The translations under genes were made by a program, and so were the position numbers. Shown here in pieces: positions 3,001 to 64,000 of a stretch of DNA of 64,000 bases. Under the pieces are notes generated by a model. It worked only from the letters and a program-made list of their open reading frames with translations, searched no databases and had not been told where the DNA came from. Source of the stretch: Saccoglossus kowalevskii (taxonomy: Eukaryota > Hemichordata > Enteropneusta > Harrimaniidae). The stretch is from contig NW_003119426.1 in assembly GCF_000003605.2 (NCBI RefSeq), positions 537,960 through 601,959 of the forward strand, in the 5' to 3' direction. The first letter of the stretch is position 1, and each line of letters begins with the position of its first letter.

Positions 3001-3180
3001 GAATACAGCTTGTAGAACATCTGCTCATGGGCATGCATATTCGTTAATATACTTTGTCCGTGGAATGAATACAGTTAGAAATTGAAAAAGCATTCCACTT
3101 TCAAATTGGTTTGTTTAACAAAATAGACGTATATGCAATTGTATATTTCTGGATGCAATTAACATGAATAACACATCATA
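1..3180. other. intergenic, no supported gene
   Basis: Open frames here are short, lack splice-site support and show no recognisable motif. The plus-strand frame at 157-462 and the overlapping minus-strand frames at 1453-1974 have compositions expected of AT-rich non-coding DNA. CpG is common. No tandem repeat was noticed. Confidence 0.6.
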
Positions 3181-4812
3181 ATATATAACATGACGAGTGT
3201 ATGTGATAACACGGTACATATACTAATATATAACATGACGAGTGTATGTGATAACACGGTACATATACTAATATATAACATGACGAGTGTATGTGATAAC
3301 ACGGTACATATACTAATATATAACATGACGAGTGTATGTGATAACACGGTACATATACTAATATATAACATGACAATTGTATGTGATAACACGGTACATA
3401 TACTAATATATAACATGATAAATGTATGTGATAACACGGTACATATACTAATATATAACATGACGAGTGTATGTGATAACACGGTACATATACTAATATA
3501 TAACATGACGAATGTTTGTGATAACACGGTGTATATACTAATATATAACGTGACGAATGTATGTGATAACACGGTACATATACTAATATATAACATGACA
3601 ATTGTATGTGATAACACGGTACATATACTAATATATAGCATGACGAATGTATGTGATAACACGGTACATATACTAATATATAACATGACGAATGTATGTG
3701 ATAACATGGTACATATACTAATATATAACATGACGAGTATTTGTGATAATACGGTACATATACTAATATATAACATGACGAATGTATGTGATAACATGGT
3801 ACATATACTAATATATAACATGACGAATGTATGTGATAACAGGGTACATATACTAATATATAACATGACGAGTATTTGTGATAATACGGTACATATACTA
3901 ATATATAACATGACGAATGTATGTGATAACATGGTACATATACTAATATATAACATGACGAATGTATGTGATAACACGGTACATATACTAATATATAACA
4001 TAACGAGTGTATGTGATAACACGGTACATATACTAATATATAACATGACAAATGTATGTGATAACACGGTACATATACTAATATATAACATGACGAATGT
4101 ACGTGATAACATGGTACATATACTAATATATAATATGACAAATGTATGTGATAACATGGTACATATACTAATATATAACATCACGAATGTATGTGATAAC
4201 ACGGTACATATACTAATATATAACATGACGAATGTATGTGATAACACGGTACATATACTAATATATAACATGACCAATGTATGTGATAACACGGTACATA
4301 TACTAATATATAACATGACGAGTGTATGTGATAACACGGTACATATACTTATATATAACATGACGAGTGTATGTGATAACACGGTACATATACTTATATA
4401 AACATGACGAGTGTATGTGATAACATGGTACATATACTAATATATAACATGACGAATGTATGTGATAACATGGTACATATACTAATATATAACATGACAA
4501 ATGTATGTGATAACACGGTGCATATACTTATATATAACGTGACGAGTGTATGTGATAACACAGTACATATACTAATATATAACATGACGAATGTATGTGA
4601 TAACATGGTACATATACTAATATATAACATGACAAATGTATGTGATAACACGGTGCATATACTAATATATAACATGACGAATGTATGTGATAACACGGTG
4701 CATATACTAATATATAACATGACGAATGTATGTGATAACACGGTACATATACTAATATATAACATGACGAGTATTTGTGATAATGCATTACATATAATAA
4801 TATATAACATGA
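3181..4812. repeat. 45-bp minisatellite, about 36 copies
   Basis: The unit begins ATATATAACATGACGAGTG and ends GGTACATATACTA. Units start at 3181, 3226, 3271 and so on. Copies differ by a few substitutions (GAGTGT, AATGTA and ACAATTG variants). One 1-bp deletion near 4399 shifts the phase. The last unit decays near 4790-4812. Because 45 is a multiple of three and the unit lacks stops in several frames, both strands are open for over 900 bases (15-residue periods). This is a by-product of the repeat, not evidence for a protein. Confidence 0.97.
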
Positions 4813-9064: not shown

Positions 9065-9519
9065 NNNNNNNNNNNNNNNNNNNNNNNNNNNNNNNNNNNN
9101 NNNNNNNNNNNNNNNNNNNNNNNNNNNNNNNNNNNNNNNNNNNNNNNNNNNNNNNNNNNNNNNNNNNNNNNNNNNNNNNNNNNNNNNNNNNNNNNNNNNN
9201 NNNNNNNNNNNNNNNNNNNNNNNNNNNNNNNNNNNNNNNNNNNNNNNNNNNNNNNNNNNNNNNNNNNNNNNNNNNNNNNNNNNNNNNNNNNNNNNNNNNN
9301 NNNNNNNNNNNNNNNNNNNNNNNNNNNNNNNNNNNNNNNNNNNNNNNNNNNNNNNNNNNNNNNNNNNNNNNNNNNNNNNNNNNNNNNNNNNNNNNNNNNN
9401 NNNNNNNNNNNNNNNNNNNNNNNNNNNNNNNNNNNNNNNNNNNNNNNNNNNNNNNNNNNNNNNNNNNNNNNNNNNNNNNNNNNNNNNNNNNNNNNTGGAT
9501 TTGATGTACCATCGAGGGA

Positions 9520-9560
<41 letters not shown>
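9006..9560. repeat. direct repeat with (TA)n flanking assembly gap
   Basis: A 25-base segment beginning TGGATTTGATGTACCATCG, followed by a TA run, occurs at 9006 and again at 9496, either side of the gap. The offset is 490 bases. This suggests a tandemly repeated, TA-rich unit that the assembly could not resolve. Confidence 0.8.
9065..9495. other. assembly gap (431 N)
   Basis: Run of N. Frames drawn through it carry no information. Confidence 1.
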
Positions 9561-9566
<6 letters not shown>

Positions 9567-9850
9567 AGTGATCATTACGTGACATATATACATATATCAT
9601 CGATTAATCAATTGTATATGGAGATAGGATCCGTACTATCCCCAAAAACAATATATATATTCAATAGTGATCATTACGTGACATATATACATATATCATC
9701 GATTAATCAATTGTATATGGAGATAGGATCCGTACTATCCCCAAAAACAATATATATATTCAATAGTGATCATTACGTGACATATATACATATATCATCG
9801 ATTAATCAATTGTATATGGAGATAGGATCCGTACTATCCCCAAAAACAAA
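9561..9850. repeat. 99-bp tandem repeat, about three copies
   Basis: Copies start with TTCAATAGTGATCATTACG at 9561, 9660 and 9759. They are nearly identical and joined by short TA runs. The third copy ends at CCCCAAAAACAAA. The 33-residue periodic open frame is a consequence of the 99-bp period. Confidence 0.97.
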
Positions 9851-22551: not shown

Positions 22552-22557
22552 TTTATT
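22552..22557 (-). terminator. candidate poly(A) signal AATAAA of the GPCR
   Basis: TTTATT on the plus strand is AATAAA on the minus strand, about 127 bases past the stop codon. It is the first canonical hexamer I see downstream, so the 3'-UTR would be short. Confidence 0.45.
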
Positions 22558-22683: not shown

Positions 22684-23150
22684 TTAGGAATCGCCCTCTA
22701 CCGATGAGAATGTGGTATTATTGTAGCTGCTGCCAGCCATACCTGTGGATCTCAGTCGGGTGCTTCCCACTGCGCTGTAAGTTCCGACCCCGGCGGCCTC
22801 TGTCGTCTTTCCGCAGCATCCAAAAGCTTCTAAGAAACCCTGACGGAACTTCTTGTTCATGAAGCAGTAGGTGATCGGGTTCACGCAACTAGAAATGTAG
22901 GTCAGCAGCTTGACAACGGCGGCATCCAAGGCTGATACCGATGTGAGGGCGCTCTCGCTGTCATAGAAATACCACATGTTGAGGCACCATGAGGGCATCC
23001 AACATACGAAGAACAGTAATACGATCACAATCAGCATTTTCACAACTCGTCTCTTAGCAACGTTGCTAGATGTGCTTCGTGGATGGCTGTGCGTTCGGTT
23101 TTTTGAAGAGGAGCTGTCGCCGTTAGACTTGCCACGGGAGTTGTTTTTAT
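22684..23150 (-). CDS. GPCR coding exon 4 (loop 3, TM6, TM7, C-tail)
   Basis: The acceptor is CTATTTCTTCTGCAG just before 23150, and phase 1 fits exon 3. It encodes a Ser- and Lys-rich loop 3, TM6 (about 326-350) with CWMP, TM7 (about 363-386) with NPITY, helix 8 with the Cys-Cys pair, a 40-residue tail rich in Ser, Thr and Gly, and a stop codon at 22686-22684. An ATG at 23190 lies upstream in the same frame, but the acceptor at 23151 is the only one that matches the phase of exon 3, so 23151-23190 is read as intron. Confidence 0.9.
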
Positions 23151-25126
23151 CTGCAGAAGAAATAGACCACGAAATGCTCATTATAGACATTGCCTGTATA
23201 TTTCGAAATGTACATTAGTGTGCAATAGTGTCGTGTTAACGGCAATAAAGATTACGCTTCTGGCGCTATCCGTTTATAATTCATTTCATAGTTGAACGTT
23301 ATGGCACATCGAGTAGACCACGTTCCGTGCAACGTGACGTCATACCGCGAACAGAACACATTGCTTCAGGTGAATAATTTAACGTGTAAATATATCAAAA
23401 CAAAAACTGAATTATATACTTTGGCTTTTATATATTTGTCGATAGCACTACTAGTACACTGTCGTTAGATGTAAACACGTAATTTGATTAATACGTAATG
23501 TGTTGGTCACATACGTCTAATCTAAACACTTCGTAAACCTTTCCGTTGGCCTCGAACCCCGGTCACTGTGACCTCCAACGTTCAATCATTCGCACCGTCA
23601 CCTGACAAAACTTCAATATGACTATTTCTATAAATGAAATTCTAGATTGTTTGCTTTCAGAAATTGCACATTCTAATCGATCAATGTCGGCAGCCACGTA
23701 CGGCGTATAGTAAACTTCAATCATGTCAGTTGAGGCAGACCTTGCTCAAAACTACTAAGGGGTCTTCCACAGGCAAATCACTAATTCGTTAGTCAAATGC
23801 CTATATTCCCGTTATTCGCCGGCAAGCCATGCAGTGTACATAGTCATGAATGTACCAAGATACTATATATTCTCGATCACATTAAAGATTGCCACCGCGG
23901 ATTTAGCAGTCACATTTAAGAAACGGCTTAAAAACTAATTTGGTCGGACCTGGATCTTGAGAAATATTAAAGACTTTCACGAACAATCTTTGTCCATTTC
24001 ATGCACTATTTTGATCATCTTTACTATCGATAAAACCAATCTAATCATTACTGGAATTATTTTCTAATCGCAATGACACACATACGCACACTTGGTTCAC
24101 ACGACGTTGCAGTATTATATGCATGTTTAAAGTATACATTACAAACATATATTACAAAAATTATATAAACAGACTATTTCCTAATTGTATTCAGTAGCAA
24201 TTTCGCAATGCTTTAACCGTGAGACACGTTTCTAGTAATCACGTGATCGTGCCAACGACTGAGGCGAGTGGCTGATCGCATGTTTACTTAGAGCCTTAGA
24301 GTTTTATTGGAGAGTAAGAGAAGACAGCGACGTGTTACATTCCGTTGACGGTTTAGATGAATAAAGCTGGTTTATATGTAATGAACTTAGGTGTTCCTTT
24401 GGGTCGAAACTGGTATCTCTACGTGTAAGTGTTATCAGCCAAGCGATTCAGAGCTCCCTGCATACAACGCTTTGTTCACAACAATCTCAACAAAATTTAA
24501 TATATACGCAGTCGAGACTCGGGTAAACCCGTGGCATATTTGTAAGTCGGGCGGATGAGCCGAATTCCAAAGTCAGCGCGCCAGCACAGTCATGTTGTGG
24601 AGAACATCGATATGTGAACATTAGTCTGTGTTGTAATCGTGTTGCAGTGTCTGTTTTCCTTCAGACAACTAATATTTATTAGTTGTCTGAGGTTTTCTTA
24701 ATTTTTTTGCGTGTCATAATCTGCCACATAGTGTCGTGCGATATGCATAATTTAATTTAATTCAATTCAATTTAATTTAGAAACAAATGTGTATGTCTCC
24801 ATACTGGCTACAGATCCTCTGTAAAGTTTTTTTTTCTAAAACAATGAAAACATTATATGGATTTTATTACGGAGAAATGCGACATTGGCGTTCGAAAGAC
24901 ATCTTCTTTTTCATTGATTGGATTTACATATGGGAACATAGGATTAATCATAGTGGCCAACGACATTATTCGGCAGTCGTTTAAGTTAAAATCTTACCGT
25001 TACCTGTTGGGCTATGTTCATTCTGCATACCTCTCCATAGCTCGACGATGATGAGGCTGTACGCGACTACCATCACAAGAAGTGGTATCACCATTAAAAT
25101 AGAAAACAAACATGTCTAAAGCGAGC

Positions 25127-25157
<31 letters not shown>

Positions 25158-27052
25158 TATTAAACATGTGCAAATATAGCCAACTATTCATTTTGCTGGG
25201 CGTGGCGTGTTTGTTTTAAATAAAATATTTTCAACACTATATTGAATCAGAACCGCGGTGTTGATATGTTAACCAGACTCCGTAATCGACGAAAGATTAT
25301 ACGCTAAGTATCGTTAAATGTACCCAACAACTAAGGGACGAACGTTTGGATAAATTATAAAACTTAAAATCAATGCGTTTTGTATTTACGAATGAATAAT
25401 ATCCATACAAAAACAAAAGCAGATTCTCGATGTGGGGGGGCGCTCTTATTTACTGGCTTCAAGCGTACTATACTTGTCCATGGAAACCCGTTGAAAAACA
25501 TTGCACGATGAGGGCGCTGTATTTTTCACCGTATAAATGACTGTCTACAAACTACCACATCCATTTAATGTCCATCCACTTTAAATATTATTTTTTTCTT
25601 TATATATGTATAACCGATGTCTTTGTGTAGTGTTACGAGTATGTGTATGGACTATTACGAAATACTTGGTAGGTGAAGCGATGCTATTTGTTCAGTCTCA
25701 CATATTTGTTTCAAATGAAAGAACCCAGCTGGGGCAATAACCTGTATGTCAAGCTCCTGGCAGTGCGTTATTAGGCATTGTATTTAAAAATAAATTGCCC
25801 GTCCCAAATACGGGATAATTCATCGCAATGCAATGAATGTTGATAGTTAGACTCATATTAGGACGAGGCATTGCATCAGACACGATAATTTCTTTTAAAA
25901 AAAGTATCATGAAGATATCAATTGCTTTTGTTTTCTGTTGAAAAGTGAAGAAACAGCGTTTTTTTTTGTTTTGTTTTTTTTGTTTTTGTTTTTTTTATCT
26001 AAAACAGTTTCATCTCAAGTATCGACAGAATCGCTTCACACTATCCAGCCAAATTGTTTTAGGGGAGAAAACAAGCATTTGTACTTACAGTGTAGGCTTT
26101 ATATGCCCTGGGGTCAGGCCACTCGTCTCTGCATTTGTACGTATGCGGTTTGCTCAGTGGTGTTAGTTTCGTGAAGACGACTGTCGGTATAAAGAGAATA
26201 AATCCCGTCAACCAGACAGCGCCTATTAACTTGTAGGCGTGGGCTTTTGTCTGCCAACCGCGGGAGGTGAGAGGTCGACATATTGCGAAGTATCTTTCCA
26301 TGGATAGCGATACCATAGTCCACACCGAAACAAAAACAGCGACCACTGAAAAATACAAAAACATACTATGTGACCACAGCATTGAAAAAAAAAGAAAATG
26401 TGTCGCAATACCTGTTATGGACGCATTGTTCTTGAACACGTACGTATTTTCAAATTTCTTATCAGATCGAGAAGATGGAACAATATGTGTTGCCGTTATA
26501 TTTGGAAAATTGCAAATACTAAATTGTTATTTCCTGTCATAGAAAGACAATAATATAAATACCTTGTATGTAGGGGAGTATACGGCAGAATCCCTCTCCG
26601 AAGATAAAGTTTTGAAGGATTGCCCCGACAATGGTAATGGGCATGCAAAACAACGCGAAAATCAAATCGCTGACAGAGAGACTCAGCAAGAATATATTAG
26701 TAACAGTTCGCATTCGTTTGTTCTGAGCCAAGGTCACGATAACTAAGATATTCCCCACGACAGCCAAGAGGAAAATAACAGAGTACAACACCAGCGAAAG
26801 CCTGACATCCATGGCAGGAGGCGGTGCTCTGGAACCATAGTGATGGTCGACGTCCACATCCACGTCCGTTCCGTTGGTACAAGTGTCATTATGTAAAGTT
26901 AGATTGCACATTTGAATCAAGCTTTTGGTTACATTTAACGTTGTCCCGTTATCACACATATTTAATAAAGCGTTCTCGCATAAATCCCGTAAATCGGCGG
27001 CGAATCCCGGGGTAGATGTTCCAGTCGCGTTCTCCATAGTTTCACTATACAT
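22684..27052 (-). CDS. CCK/sulfakinin-type neuropeptide GPCR, four coding exons
   Basis: Spliced gene: join of 27052-26563, 26345-26089, 25115-24998 and 23150-22684. It encodes 443 residues, or 438 if the second in-frame Met is used. Introns have GT/AG ends and phases 1, 0 and 1, and the reading frame closes across all junctions. Class-A GPCR landmarks seen: N101 in TM1 (GNILV), D129 in TM2, Cys156 at the top of TM3 and Cys235 in extracellular loop 2 (expected disulfide), ERY at 180-182, CWMP at 338-341 in TM6, NPITY at 379-383 in TM7, and a Cys400-Cys401 pair after helix 8 (likely palmitoylation). The extracellular N-terminus has six N-glycosylation sequons (N8, N35, N40, N50, N55, N60). Family evidence: RGWQTKAHAYK after TM3, a Cys-Arg-Asp-Glu-Trp-Pro loop 2 as in sulfakinin receptors, and SSCVNPITYCFMNKKFR in TM7, very close to CCK receptors. 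Expected role: peptide-activated plasma-membrane receptor. Length is normal for the family. The exact ligand is inferred. Confidence 0.9.
23540..23600 (-). repeat. possible tRNA-derived SINE fragment
   Basis: On the minus strand, GGGGTTCGAGGCC (box B-like, about 23560-23548) follows a box A-like TGCGAATGATTGAACG (about 23595-23580). The spacing is shorter than in tRNAs, so this is weak. It lies in GPCR intron 3. Confidence 0.3.
24661..24690. repeat. 30-bp perfect hairpin in GPCR intron 3
   Basis: TCAGACAACTAATA and its exact reverse complement are separated by TT. It can form a 14-bp stem or cruciform. No function is shown. Confidence 0.8.
24998..25115 (-). CDS. GPCR coding exon 3 (TM5)
   Basis: This short exon is recovered from the splice sites and reading frame. 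The acceptor is CGCTTTAG, preceded on the minus strand by a (TC)n tract. Translation in phase 0 gives a TM5 helix (about residues 251-275) ending in VELWRG, like the CCK-receptor TM5 to loop 3 boundary. Three in-frame phase-1 donors are possible: after 25031 (GTATGC), after 25004 (GTAACG) or after 24998 (GTAAGA). The longest is chosen here for its GTAAGA donor. The shortest would remove 11 residues from intracellular loop 3. Confidence 0.8.
25127..25150. repeat. (GA)12 microsatellite at the exon 3 acceptor
   Basis: On the minus strand this is (TC)12, ending about 10 bases before the acceptor AG of exon 3. It therefore forms most of the polypyrimidine tract. Confidence 0.95.
26089..26345 (-). 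CDS. GPCR coding exon 2 (TM3 to extracellular loop 2)
   Basis: The acceptor is TTTTTCAG just before 26345, and the donor GTAAGT starts at 26088. It encodes the last two bases of codon 164 through Thr249: the rest of TM3, the ERY motif, the second intracellular loop, TM4 (about 199-221) and most of extracellular loop 2 with Cys235. Joined to exon 1, the spacing from the TM3 Cys to the ERY motif equals that of vertebrate CCK receptors, which supports both splice sites. Confidence 0.9.
26563..27052 (-). CDS. GPCR coding exon 1 (N-terminus to top of TM3)
   Basis: It encodes residues 1-163 plus the first base of codon 164. It holds the glycosylated, Cys-containing N-terminus (Cys25, 33, 49, 58), an Asp/Val run at 63-69, TM1 (about 84-106), TM2 (about 118-142) and the start of TM3. 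It ends CAAG before the donor GTATTT at 26562. An in-frame TAG lies at 27070-27068, so the coding sequence starts here. Met1 (27052) has a weak context (T at -3, T at +4). Met6 (27037) has A at -3 and G at +4 and is the more likely initiator. Confidence 0.9.
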
Positions 27053-27118
27053 TAATAATGATATCTCCTAAAATCAGGCATTTACGAGTTGTCCAATCAC
27101 TTGATCCAGAAGTTTTTG
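27053..27118 (-). other. 5'-UTR part of GPCR exon with upstream splice acceptor
   Basis: On the minus strand, TTTTTTCTTCCTAC followed by AG at 27120-27119 is a near-ideal polypyrimidine tract and acceptor, with no coding frame behind it. It implies at least one non-coding exon further upstream. The 66 bases to the ATG carry an in-frame stop (27070-27068). Confidence 0.65.
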
Positions 27119-32350: not shown

Positions 32351-32571
32351 NNNNNNNNNNNNNNNNNNNNNNNNNNNNNNNNNNNNNNNNNNNNNNNNNN
32401 NNNNNNNNNNNNNNNNNNNNNNNNNNNNNNNNNNNNNNNNNNNNNNNNNNNNNNNNNNNNNNNNNNNNNNNNNNNNNNNNNNNNNNNNNNNNNNNNNNNN
32501 NNNNNNNNNNNNNNNNNNNNNNNNNNNNNNNNNNNNNNNNNNNNNNNNNNNNNNNNNNNNNNNNNNNNNNN
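32351..32571. other. assembly gap (221 N)
   Basis: Run of N; nothing can be said about its content. Confidence 1.
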
Positions 32572-62636: not shown

Positions 62637-63226
62637 TTAAAGCGGCAAATACGCCCACCTTCAGAAAGTTGATAAGTTGATTGACACCTTGGTTGTGATC
62701 AGACATGCCGCCATACATGATTGCGGCTGAAAATTCATGTTTTGTGAAAATGAGATACCGGGCGTACATTTTCAAAACTGTACACGTGACTTCATGCCAC
62801 CTGCCATAGTCGTAGTCATGACAACTATAGGTTCATATATAATATATTAATGTTTTCTTTAATTCAAGTAATGCTTTACTGAGGTTACAGTGTACATTAA
62901 ATGTGATTATTTTCAGTTTGCAACGTTCCTACACTGTTACATGATATTACCTCCTCTGGATGCATTAAAATTACCCCCCTATAGACTGGCTATGAATAGT
63001 TCCTGTCTCTGGTGAATTAAAGCAATATTTCCGCGAAATGCCCCACTCACCGCGAAATACCCCGGGGTTGATTCCGCGGTAAGTAGGGAAAATATTGTTT
63101 TTCAATTGAAAATTACACCAATGTTTTAAAAAAAATCGTCCCGACTGGAGCCAGTCTACACCCCGTACTCCGCATTGCTTGTTGCCACGGGTGATGTCAT
63201 TATGCGCGCGCATGTCAAATGTTTTT

Positions 63227-63237
63227 AAGATGGCGGC
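63227..63237 (+). promoter_or_regulatory. YY1-type AAGATGGCGGC motif, possible promoter
   Basis: An exact match to the AAGATGGCGGC word that marks many start sites of housekeeping genes in animals. It sits in a CpG-rich patch (about 63010-63370). A minus-strand exon could run from here to a strong donor, CGCG followed by GTGAGT at 63050. A plus-strand leader could end at AAG/GTAAAG (63377). No downstream coding exon lies within the window. Confidence 0.3.
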
Positions 63238-63639
63238 TTGGGAATCATAACACACTTCAATTGGCGCCCATTTATTCGAATCTTTTGACGTTTACGAGTA
63301 TCTACGAGTCGGGATCATAGTCGCGACATCTTACGGCATCGTAGTACTGACTGCAACCCTCTGATCAAGTATAGAAGGTAAAGGAAAGTCAACAGACGCT
63401 AGTTTCAGTTCAAACGAGCTGATCAGCTGCAGAGGCAGTCCTGTTCTGAGCTGCCACAACTGTCACACATGTGTTTACATGTTGATCCACCCATGATCCA
63501 CCGTTGTTTCAGCCAGTTTTTGTATCAGAGTGTCTTCAACTCTGCGCGTGGCTGCAGCAAATTGCACATGCTGTGATATAAATTTCATTTTGAAGATATG
63601 CCGTAGGTCGACACCATTGCAAATGAATTATAAATGATG

Positions 63640-63662
63640 GCATATGTGTGTGTGTGTGTGTG
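63640..63662. repeat. (GT)n microsatellite
   Basis: About 10 GT units. Confidence 0.9.
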
Positions 63663-64000
63663 ATTCCGTCACGTGTCTGGGATTTAATTACGTCACTGTT
63701 ATATGGCCATTTCAATGAAATTTATTAAAGTAGAGATATTGACATTCCGCGTCCAACTGTAGTACATTCCCTCCAGTAAATAATCGTAGGAGCCAATAGT
63801 TTACAACATAGTGTACTTGAACATATTATTTTGTTGTATATGTTGAATATTCTGTTTTACTAGTCTCAAATTTGTCTGTCATTTATTGAGTGAGAAGTTT
63901 AGGTGTAAAGATGTACCGTAGAAAATGTTATTTGTTTTACATACATAGACCTGTTAACACACAAAATCTTTGTGGGATTTTTTTTTTTTATAGCTGAATG

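Follow-up and report, generated by a model that had tools for sequence, protein, structure and literature searches.

In this study, a 64,000-nucleotide stretch of DNA (the window; positions 537960-601959 of contig C1211) was found to carry, on its minus strand at 22684-27052, a gene that very probably encodes a cholecystokinin (CCK)/sulfakinin (SK)-type class-A G protein-coupled receptor (GPCR). We hold with high confidence that it is one of two tandem co-orthologues of the vertebrate receptors CCK1R and CCK2R; the host is most probably a hemichordate, its genome resembling an acorn worm's. The other copy, its paralogue, shares this contig and strand but lies beyond the window. The gene is a new member of a well-known receptor family, whose hormones, cholecystokinin among them, are ancient and act in gut and brain, and as such is no surprise.

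Four minus-strand exons with GT/AG ends, joined in phases 1, 0 and 1, give a class-A GPCR frame of 443 amino acids. The coding sequence comprises 1332 nt including the stop codon, and the distance from the first in-frame ATG to the stop codon corresponds exactly to 22684-27052. A preliminary description of this DNA had proposed the four-exon reconstruction with matching phases, and had placed the introns in transmembrane segment 3 (TM3), ahead of TM5 and within loop 3; the junctions and phases as read from the sequence, and the intron positions as read from alignment, confirmed both proposals. Exon 1 (26563..27052) runs from the N-terminus, which carries six NxS/T sites, to the middle of TM3 and ends in phase 1; it matches CCK1R from residue 40 and is aligned with exon 1 of the paralogue. 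Exon 2 (26089..26345), leading from phase 1 to phase 0, holds the remainder of TM3, ERY, TM4 and extracellular loop 2 with KCRDEWP, and exon 3 (24998..25115), ending in phase 1, holds TM5 and the start of intracellular loop 3. Exon 4 (22684..23150) supplies the remainder of that loop, TM6, TM7 with NPITY, helix 8 with CC, the C-terminal tail and the stop codon. The junctions (a slash marks the splice point) read CAAG/GTATTT and TTTTTCAG/TG for intron 1 (26346..26562; TM3, phase 1), ACT/GTAAGT and CTTTAG/AC for intron 2 (25116..26088; just before TM5, phase 0), and ACG/GTAAGA and CTGCAG/AT for intron 3 (23151..24997; intracellular loop 3, phase 1). An in-frame TGA inside the genome matches to exon 1 sits past the donor, in intron 1. 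An alternative in-phase donor in exon 3, 6 nt earlier (CAG/GTAACG, last exon base 25004), would give a protein two residues shorter.

At the 5' end, an intron in the untranslated region (UTR) is likely, since an acceptor-like TTTTTTCTTCCTACAG puts the first exon base at 27118, 66 nt upstream of the first ATG, and two in-frame stops (27070 and 27076) lie between them. Within the first coding exon, the 5'UTR probably occupies 27053..27118; the upstream UTR exon was not located. Translation may start five residues downstream, at a second in-frame ATG (27037), because its context has A at -3 and G at +4. An AATAAA polyadenylation signal at 22552..22557, a consensus match, lies 127 nt past the stop codon on the same strand.

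The predicted protein matches the Pfam family 7tm_1 (PF00001) at 2.9e-65 over 260 of 260 profile positions. Inspection by eye located GN in TM1, the disulfide Cys pair of TM3 and extracellular loop 2, ERY (the ERY/DRY motif), CWMP (CWxP), NPITY (NPxxY) and CC after helix 8. With these motifs and the full-length domain match, the protein has the features of a class-A (rhodopsin) GPCR, and the earlier statement that every class-A landmark is in place holds. Within this class, similarity points to the CCK/SK receptors. Among the best 60 of 385 matches to sequences in the PDB, human CCK1R (E 7.8e-87) and CCK2R (3.5e-77) scored highest, nine distinct CCK1R/CCK2R sequences heading the list at 7.8e-87 to 4.2e-77, and OX2R came next at 5.3e-47. 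By BLASTP, identity was 47.6% to CCK1R, 38.5% to CCK2R and at most 33.1% to 30 other receptor rows.

Trees were built from 33 rows: 32 receptor loci of the same genome, selected by similarity to the window protein or by Pfam 7tm_1 and not at random, minus five with a frame below 320 aa and one that overlapped, plus five human receptors (CCK1R, CCK2R, OX2R, NPY1R and NK1R) and the two genes. In the resulting tree, CCK1R and CCK2R fell into one group with the window gene and its paralogue, supported at 99/97 against the 29 other rows. After removal of 15 long-branched or distant rows, the same group was recovered at 100/99 against 14 other rows. The two genes thus group with CCK1R/CCK2R, the human members of the family, apart from other peptide GPCRs, with OX2R, NPY1R, NK1R and the own-genome rows as outgroups. 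When the genome was searched with CCK1R, 126 matches were listed at E up to 1e-10, with 125 of 619 candidates scored; four of the 126 reached at least 45% identity, and all four were exons 1 and 4 of the window gene and the paralogue. The CCK/sulfakinin-type identity proposed in the preliminary description is supported by the PDB matches, BLASTP and both trees, and the core of the protein is CCK1R-like.

The paralogue was found by searching the genome (572 Mb, 4830 contigs; 123 matches listed) with the window protein. This gave three of its exons, and the third in order was recovered from the reading frames between them. As read out from matches and frames, the exons lie on the minus strand of C1211 at 531335-530810, 523229-522976, 521608-521488 and 520734-520292, the acceptor of the last being chosen among several possibilities; the ATG is about 29.3 kb beyond the stop codon of the window gene. 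BLASTP aligns the two proteins over 384 residues at 54.7% identity. Introns 1 and 2 occupy the same aligned places in the same phases in both copies, and the third lies in intracellular loop 3 of both, with a phase-1 donor in the paralogue too. Comparison of the two gene regions by blastn gave four blocks of one exon each and nothing else at E 1e-3; the exon-3 block reaches some 10 bases into the adjoining intron. The copies share 185 amino acids over 286 core codons and differ at 90/49/172 of codon positions 1/2/3, which indicates coding constraint between them. The copies are sisters in the 33-row tree (100/98) and in the reduced tree (100/99), and CCK1R and CCK2R pair together in the former (100/99). 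With human as the sole other species compared, the tandem duplication looks independent of the CCK1R/CCK2R split. Among the papers listed in literature searches, none reports a tandem CCK receptor pair in a hemichordate by title or abstract, which is weak evidence of absence.

The residues that contact the ligand in studied receptors were then compared. The window protein has KCRDEWP at residues 234-240, and Arg 236 takes the place of CCK1R Arg197. This Arg beside the Cys of extracellular loop 2, a trait of CCK/sulfakinin receptors, is described as contacting the sulfate (PMC6219549); it is absent from CCK2R and the C. elegans receptors, so it is common rather than universal. Asn 346 corresponds to CCK1R Asn333, and Tyr 349 stands in place of Arg336. 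In the human CCK-A receptor, Arg336 is named as the partner of the peptide's penultimate Asp and Asn333 as that of its amide (title of a reference in PMC3841022; also PMC4542541). The vertebrate-type pair Asn333 and Arg336 is therefore incomplete in both copies, Asn being kept and Arg336 replaced by Tyr, and the window gene is evidently not of the vertebrate CCK receptor subtype. Its membership of the wider CCK/SK family is unaffected, since the known non-chordate ligands lack this Asp. Starfish CCK-type ligands are reported to end in GLFW-amide and GLFF-amide, without Asp (PMC8428848), and the change of Arg336 to Tyr fits a non-chordate ligand for this reason. The retention of Arg197 and Asn333 together with Tyr at 336 points to a ligand that is sulfated and amidated but lacks the penultimate Asp found in vertebrates.

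On this basis, the window protein probably sits in the plasma membrane as a receptor for a CCK-type peptide with an amidated C-terminus. It would prefer a tyrosine-sulfated peptide through the loop-2 Arg that follows the Cys and corresponds to CCK1R Arg197, and the peptide amide would be held by the Asn at the place of Asn333. The Tyr at the place of Arg336 would make the vertebrate penultimate Asp dispensable. By analogy with studied relatives, signalling may proceed mainly through Gq and calcium, with a role in regulating feeding and digestion, for which the starfish receptor is one of the precedents. In the paralogue the loop reads RCNDFWP: Asn replaces Arg197, an Arg directly precedes the Cys, and Arg336 is again replaced by Tyr. 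We tentatively consider, as a doubtful possibility, that the two receptors have split sulfate recognition after the independent tandem duplication: the window copy would keep KCR and the paralogue would have moved or lost the site (RCN), paralleling the vertebrate receptors, and the pair could correspond to two CCK-type precursors. Two such precursors are listed for Saccoglossus in a figure legend. Loss of sulfate binding in the paralogue is not claimed, since an Arg is present on the other side of its Cys.

Several observations weigh against the reading as a CCK/SK-type receptor with such a ligand and signalling. The CCK/SK receptors in both trees are human, with no non-vertebrate ones among them. 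In the CCK1R genome search, the top row by E-value was another single-frame receptor, on contig C3178 (34% identity, 2.5e-40); it ranks first because the window gene was scored exon by exon. Of two beetle sulfakinin receptors that were modelled, one had the sulfated tyrosine at acidic residues and the other at none (PMC4542541), so the Arg need not be the sulfate partner in invertebrates. Regarding Gq, CCK1R, the C. elegans CKR and a beetle SK receptor are said to raise cyclic AMP (cAMP) as well, but the oyster receptors are described as giving no cAMP response (PMC6219549). Finally, no ligand gene was found in the genome with Aplysia or starfish peptide queries, which at 33 and 35 residues have little power.

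Could the likeness to CCK receptors be general class-A similarity, the gene belonging to a neighbouring family of orexin/allatotropin, tachykinin, NPY or QRFP type? Orexin, QRFP, NPFF and tachykinin receptors match the window protein too, at 5.3e-47 and weaker among the best 60 matches, and NK1R also has CxxxWP in extracellular loop 2. However, the E-values of CCK1R and OX2R are about 40 orders of magnitude apart, and in both trees, which did not include QRFP and NPFF receptors, strongly supported branches separate OX2R, NPY1R, NK1R and the own-genome rows from the CCK receptor group. A neighbouring family is thus extremely improbable. It is also very unlikely, if slightly less so, that the window gene is a decaying or silent copy and the paralogue the working gene. 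Two neighbouring copies do exist, and the window gene is known from its sequence alone. Against this, its frame is complete with the class-A motifs, the codon-position pattern described above shows constraint, and its branch is the shorter one in both trees (0.36 vs 0.57 and 0.24 vs 0.43).

The host was assessed from a mitochondrial contig of the assembly (C4830; 17,037 bp), in which tRNAs were named by ARAGORN, cox1 by Pfam, cob by PDB match and the other protein genes by eye. The gene order is cox3-G-nad3-R-nad4L-nad4-H-S-nad5 followed directly by cob, and cox1 is on the opposite strand to most genes. The adjacency of nad5 and cob is described for hemichordates and Xenoturbella and, by convergence, for birds; ATA coding for Ile is given as common to echinoderms and hemichordates and not to Xenoturbella, and AAA is given as Lys in Saccoglossus (PMC2697986). 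In cox1 and cob, compared by eye, 17 of 21 ATA sites could be aligned with the mammalian chains listed first; the residue opposite was Ile at eight, Val at four, and Leu, Met, Ala, Phe and Ser at one each. AAA stood opposite Lys at five of six sites. A hemichordate is the best fit for this contig. If the host were a protostome, the window gene would be an ordinary lophotrochozoan CCK/SK receptor; the oyster is also reported to have two receptors with the loop-2 Arg (PMC6219549), and the rearrangements on the mitochondrial contig were not matched to a named animal. A protostome host is nevertheless unlikely, and less likely than a hemichordate, given the gene order with nad5 beside cob, which agrees with descriptions of hemichordates, and the reading of ATA (mostly opposite Ile or Val, once Met) and of AAA. 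The same contig has repeats spaced by 191 bases between apparent atp8 and atp6.

The preliminary description had also combined a protostome-like extracellular loop 2 with a TM7 very close to vertebrate receptors, which was not borne out. The loop-2 pattern CxxxWP is present in human CCK2R (CVHRWP) and NK1R (CMIEWP), and in two of 27 other own-genome receptor rows (CTEVWP and CSEAWP). The Arg after the loop-2 Cys is apparently more telling than CxxxWP, and human CCK1R has this Arg too. Identity to CCK1R was 24/41 in TM7 with helix 8, 16/28 in TM1, 21/36 in TM6, 27/40 from loop 1 to TM2, 9/12 in intracellular loop 2, 16/32 in TM5, 14/36 in TM3, 7/25 in TM4 and 5/23 in extracellular loop 2. By these counts, TM7 is among the better-conserved stretches and not the most conserved, and there is no sign of two sources. 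A mixed origin was rejected on these grounds, and the mitochondrial contig moreover points to a hemichordate, which is a deuterostome. Human CCK receptor genes are interrupted within TM3, ahead of TM5 and within loop 3, by region rather than by exact coordinate. The suggestion that the introns may inform the evolution of the family is fair; it is not new, as an intron common to vertebrate CCK receptor, insect SK receptor and oyster CCK receptor genes has been published (PMC6219549).

Among known receptors, human CCK1R shares with the window protein ERY, CWMP, the loop-2 Cys-Arg, Asn333 and the CC of the tail, besides 47.6% identity over 317 aligned residues, whereas it has Arg336 and a loop reading CRFLLP in place of CRDEWP. 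CCK2R shares CxxxWP; however, its loop-2 Cys is not followed by Arg, and an Arg stands where CCK1R has Arg336. The starfish ArSK/CCKR, compared by its description, is an ambulacrarian member of the same family with sulfated GLFW/GLFF-amide ligands, and one receptor transcript is reported there (PMC8428848) versus two tandem genes here. The oyster Cragi-CCKR1 and R2 are likewise two receptors, with an intron conserved with vertebrates and insects; they are on separate scaffolds and both have the Arg (PMC6219549), whereas the genes here are in tandem and one copy has Asn. Rhodnius SKR-1 is reported with an open reading frame (ORF) in four exons with three introns, and with ERY and NPITY (PMC6748952). 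Among the systems that control feeding in bilaterians, CCK-type signalling is one of the oldest. With both receptors complete and their introns resolved, the pair from this probable hemichordate supplies a data point intermediate between starfish and vertebrates, and offers a direct way to test how Arg197 and Arg336 changed with the ligand. The pair may be a further case of duplication with a changed sulfate site, and it overturns nothing.

In the rest of the window, 42 ORFs reach 100 aa or more, and a Pfam scan of ten of them gave no match at 0.001; three of the other 32 hold exons of the window gene. ARAGORN found no tRNA in the window, and Rfam nothing at gathering score. A tandem array at 3179-4812 contains 36.3 copies of a 45-base unit with 93% matches. 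Since the unit length is divisible by 3, the array stays open over long stretches of both strands (frames of 409 and 425 aa); these frames are not evidence of a gene. Three identical copies of a 99-base unit (9552-9849) stand beside TA repeats and a run of N, which spans 431 bases at 9065-9495; a second such run is at 32351-32571. Elsewhere in the genome, contig C593 has six matches at 403832-826834 to receptor genes or fragments 31-35% identical to the window protein; the matches end near the end of TM5, and three have in-frame stops in the 7tm_1 match. This cluster is, by its matches, a lineage-specific receptor expansion. On contig C363, three closely related single-frame receptors lie at 62823-63830, 142109-143062 and 172115-173080 (L014, L012 and L013); in one tree they join L017 and, at weak support, human OX2R. 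They are a local expansion, perhaps of orexin type.

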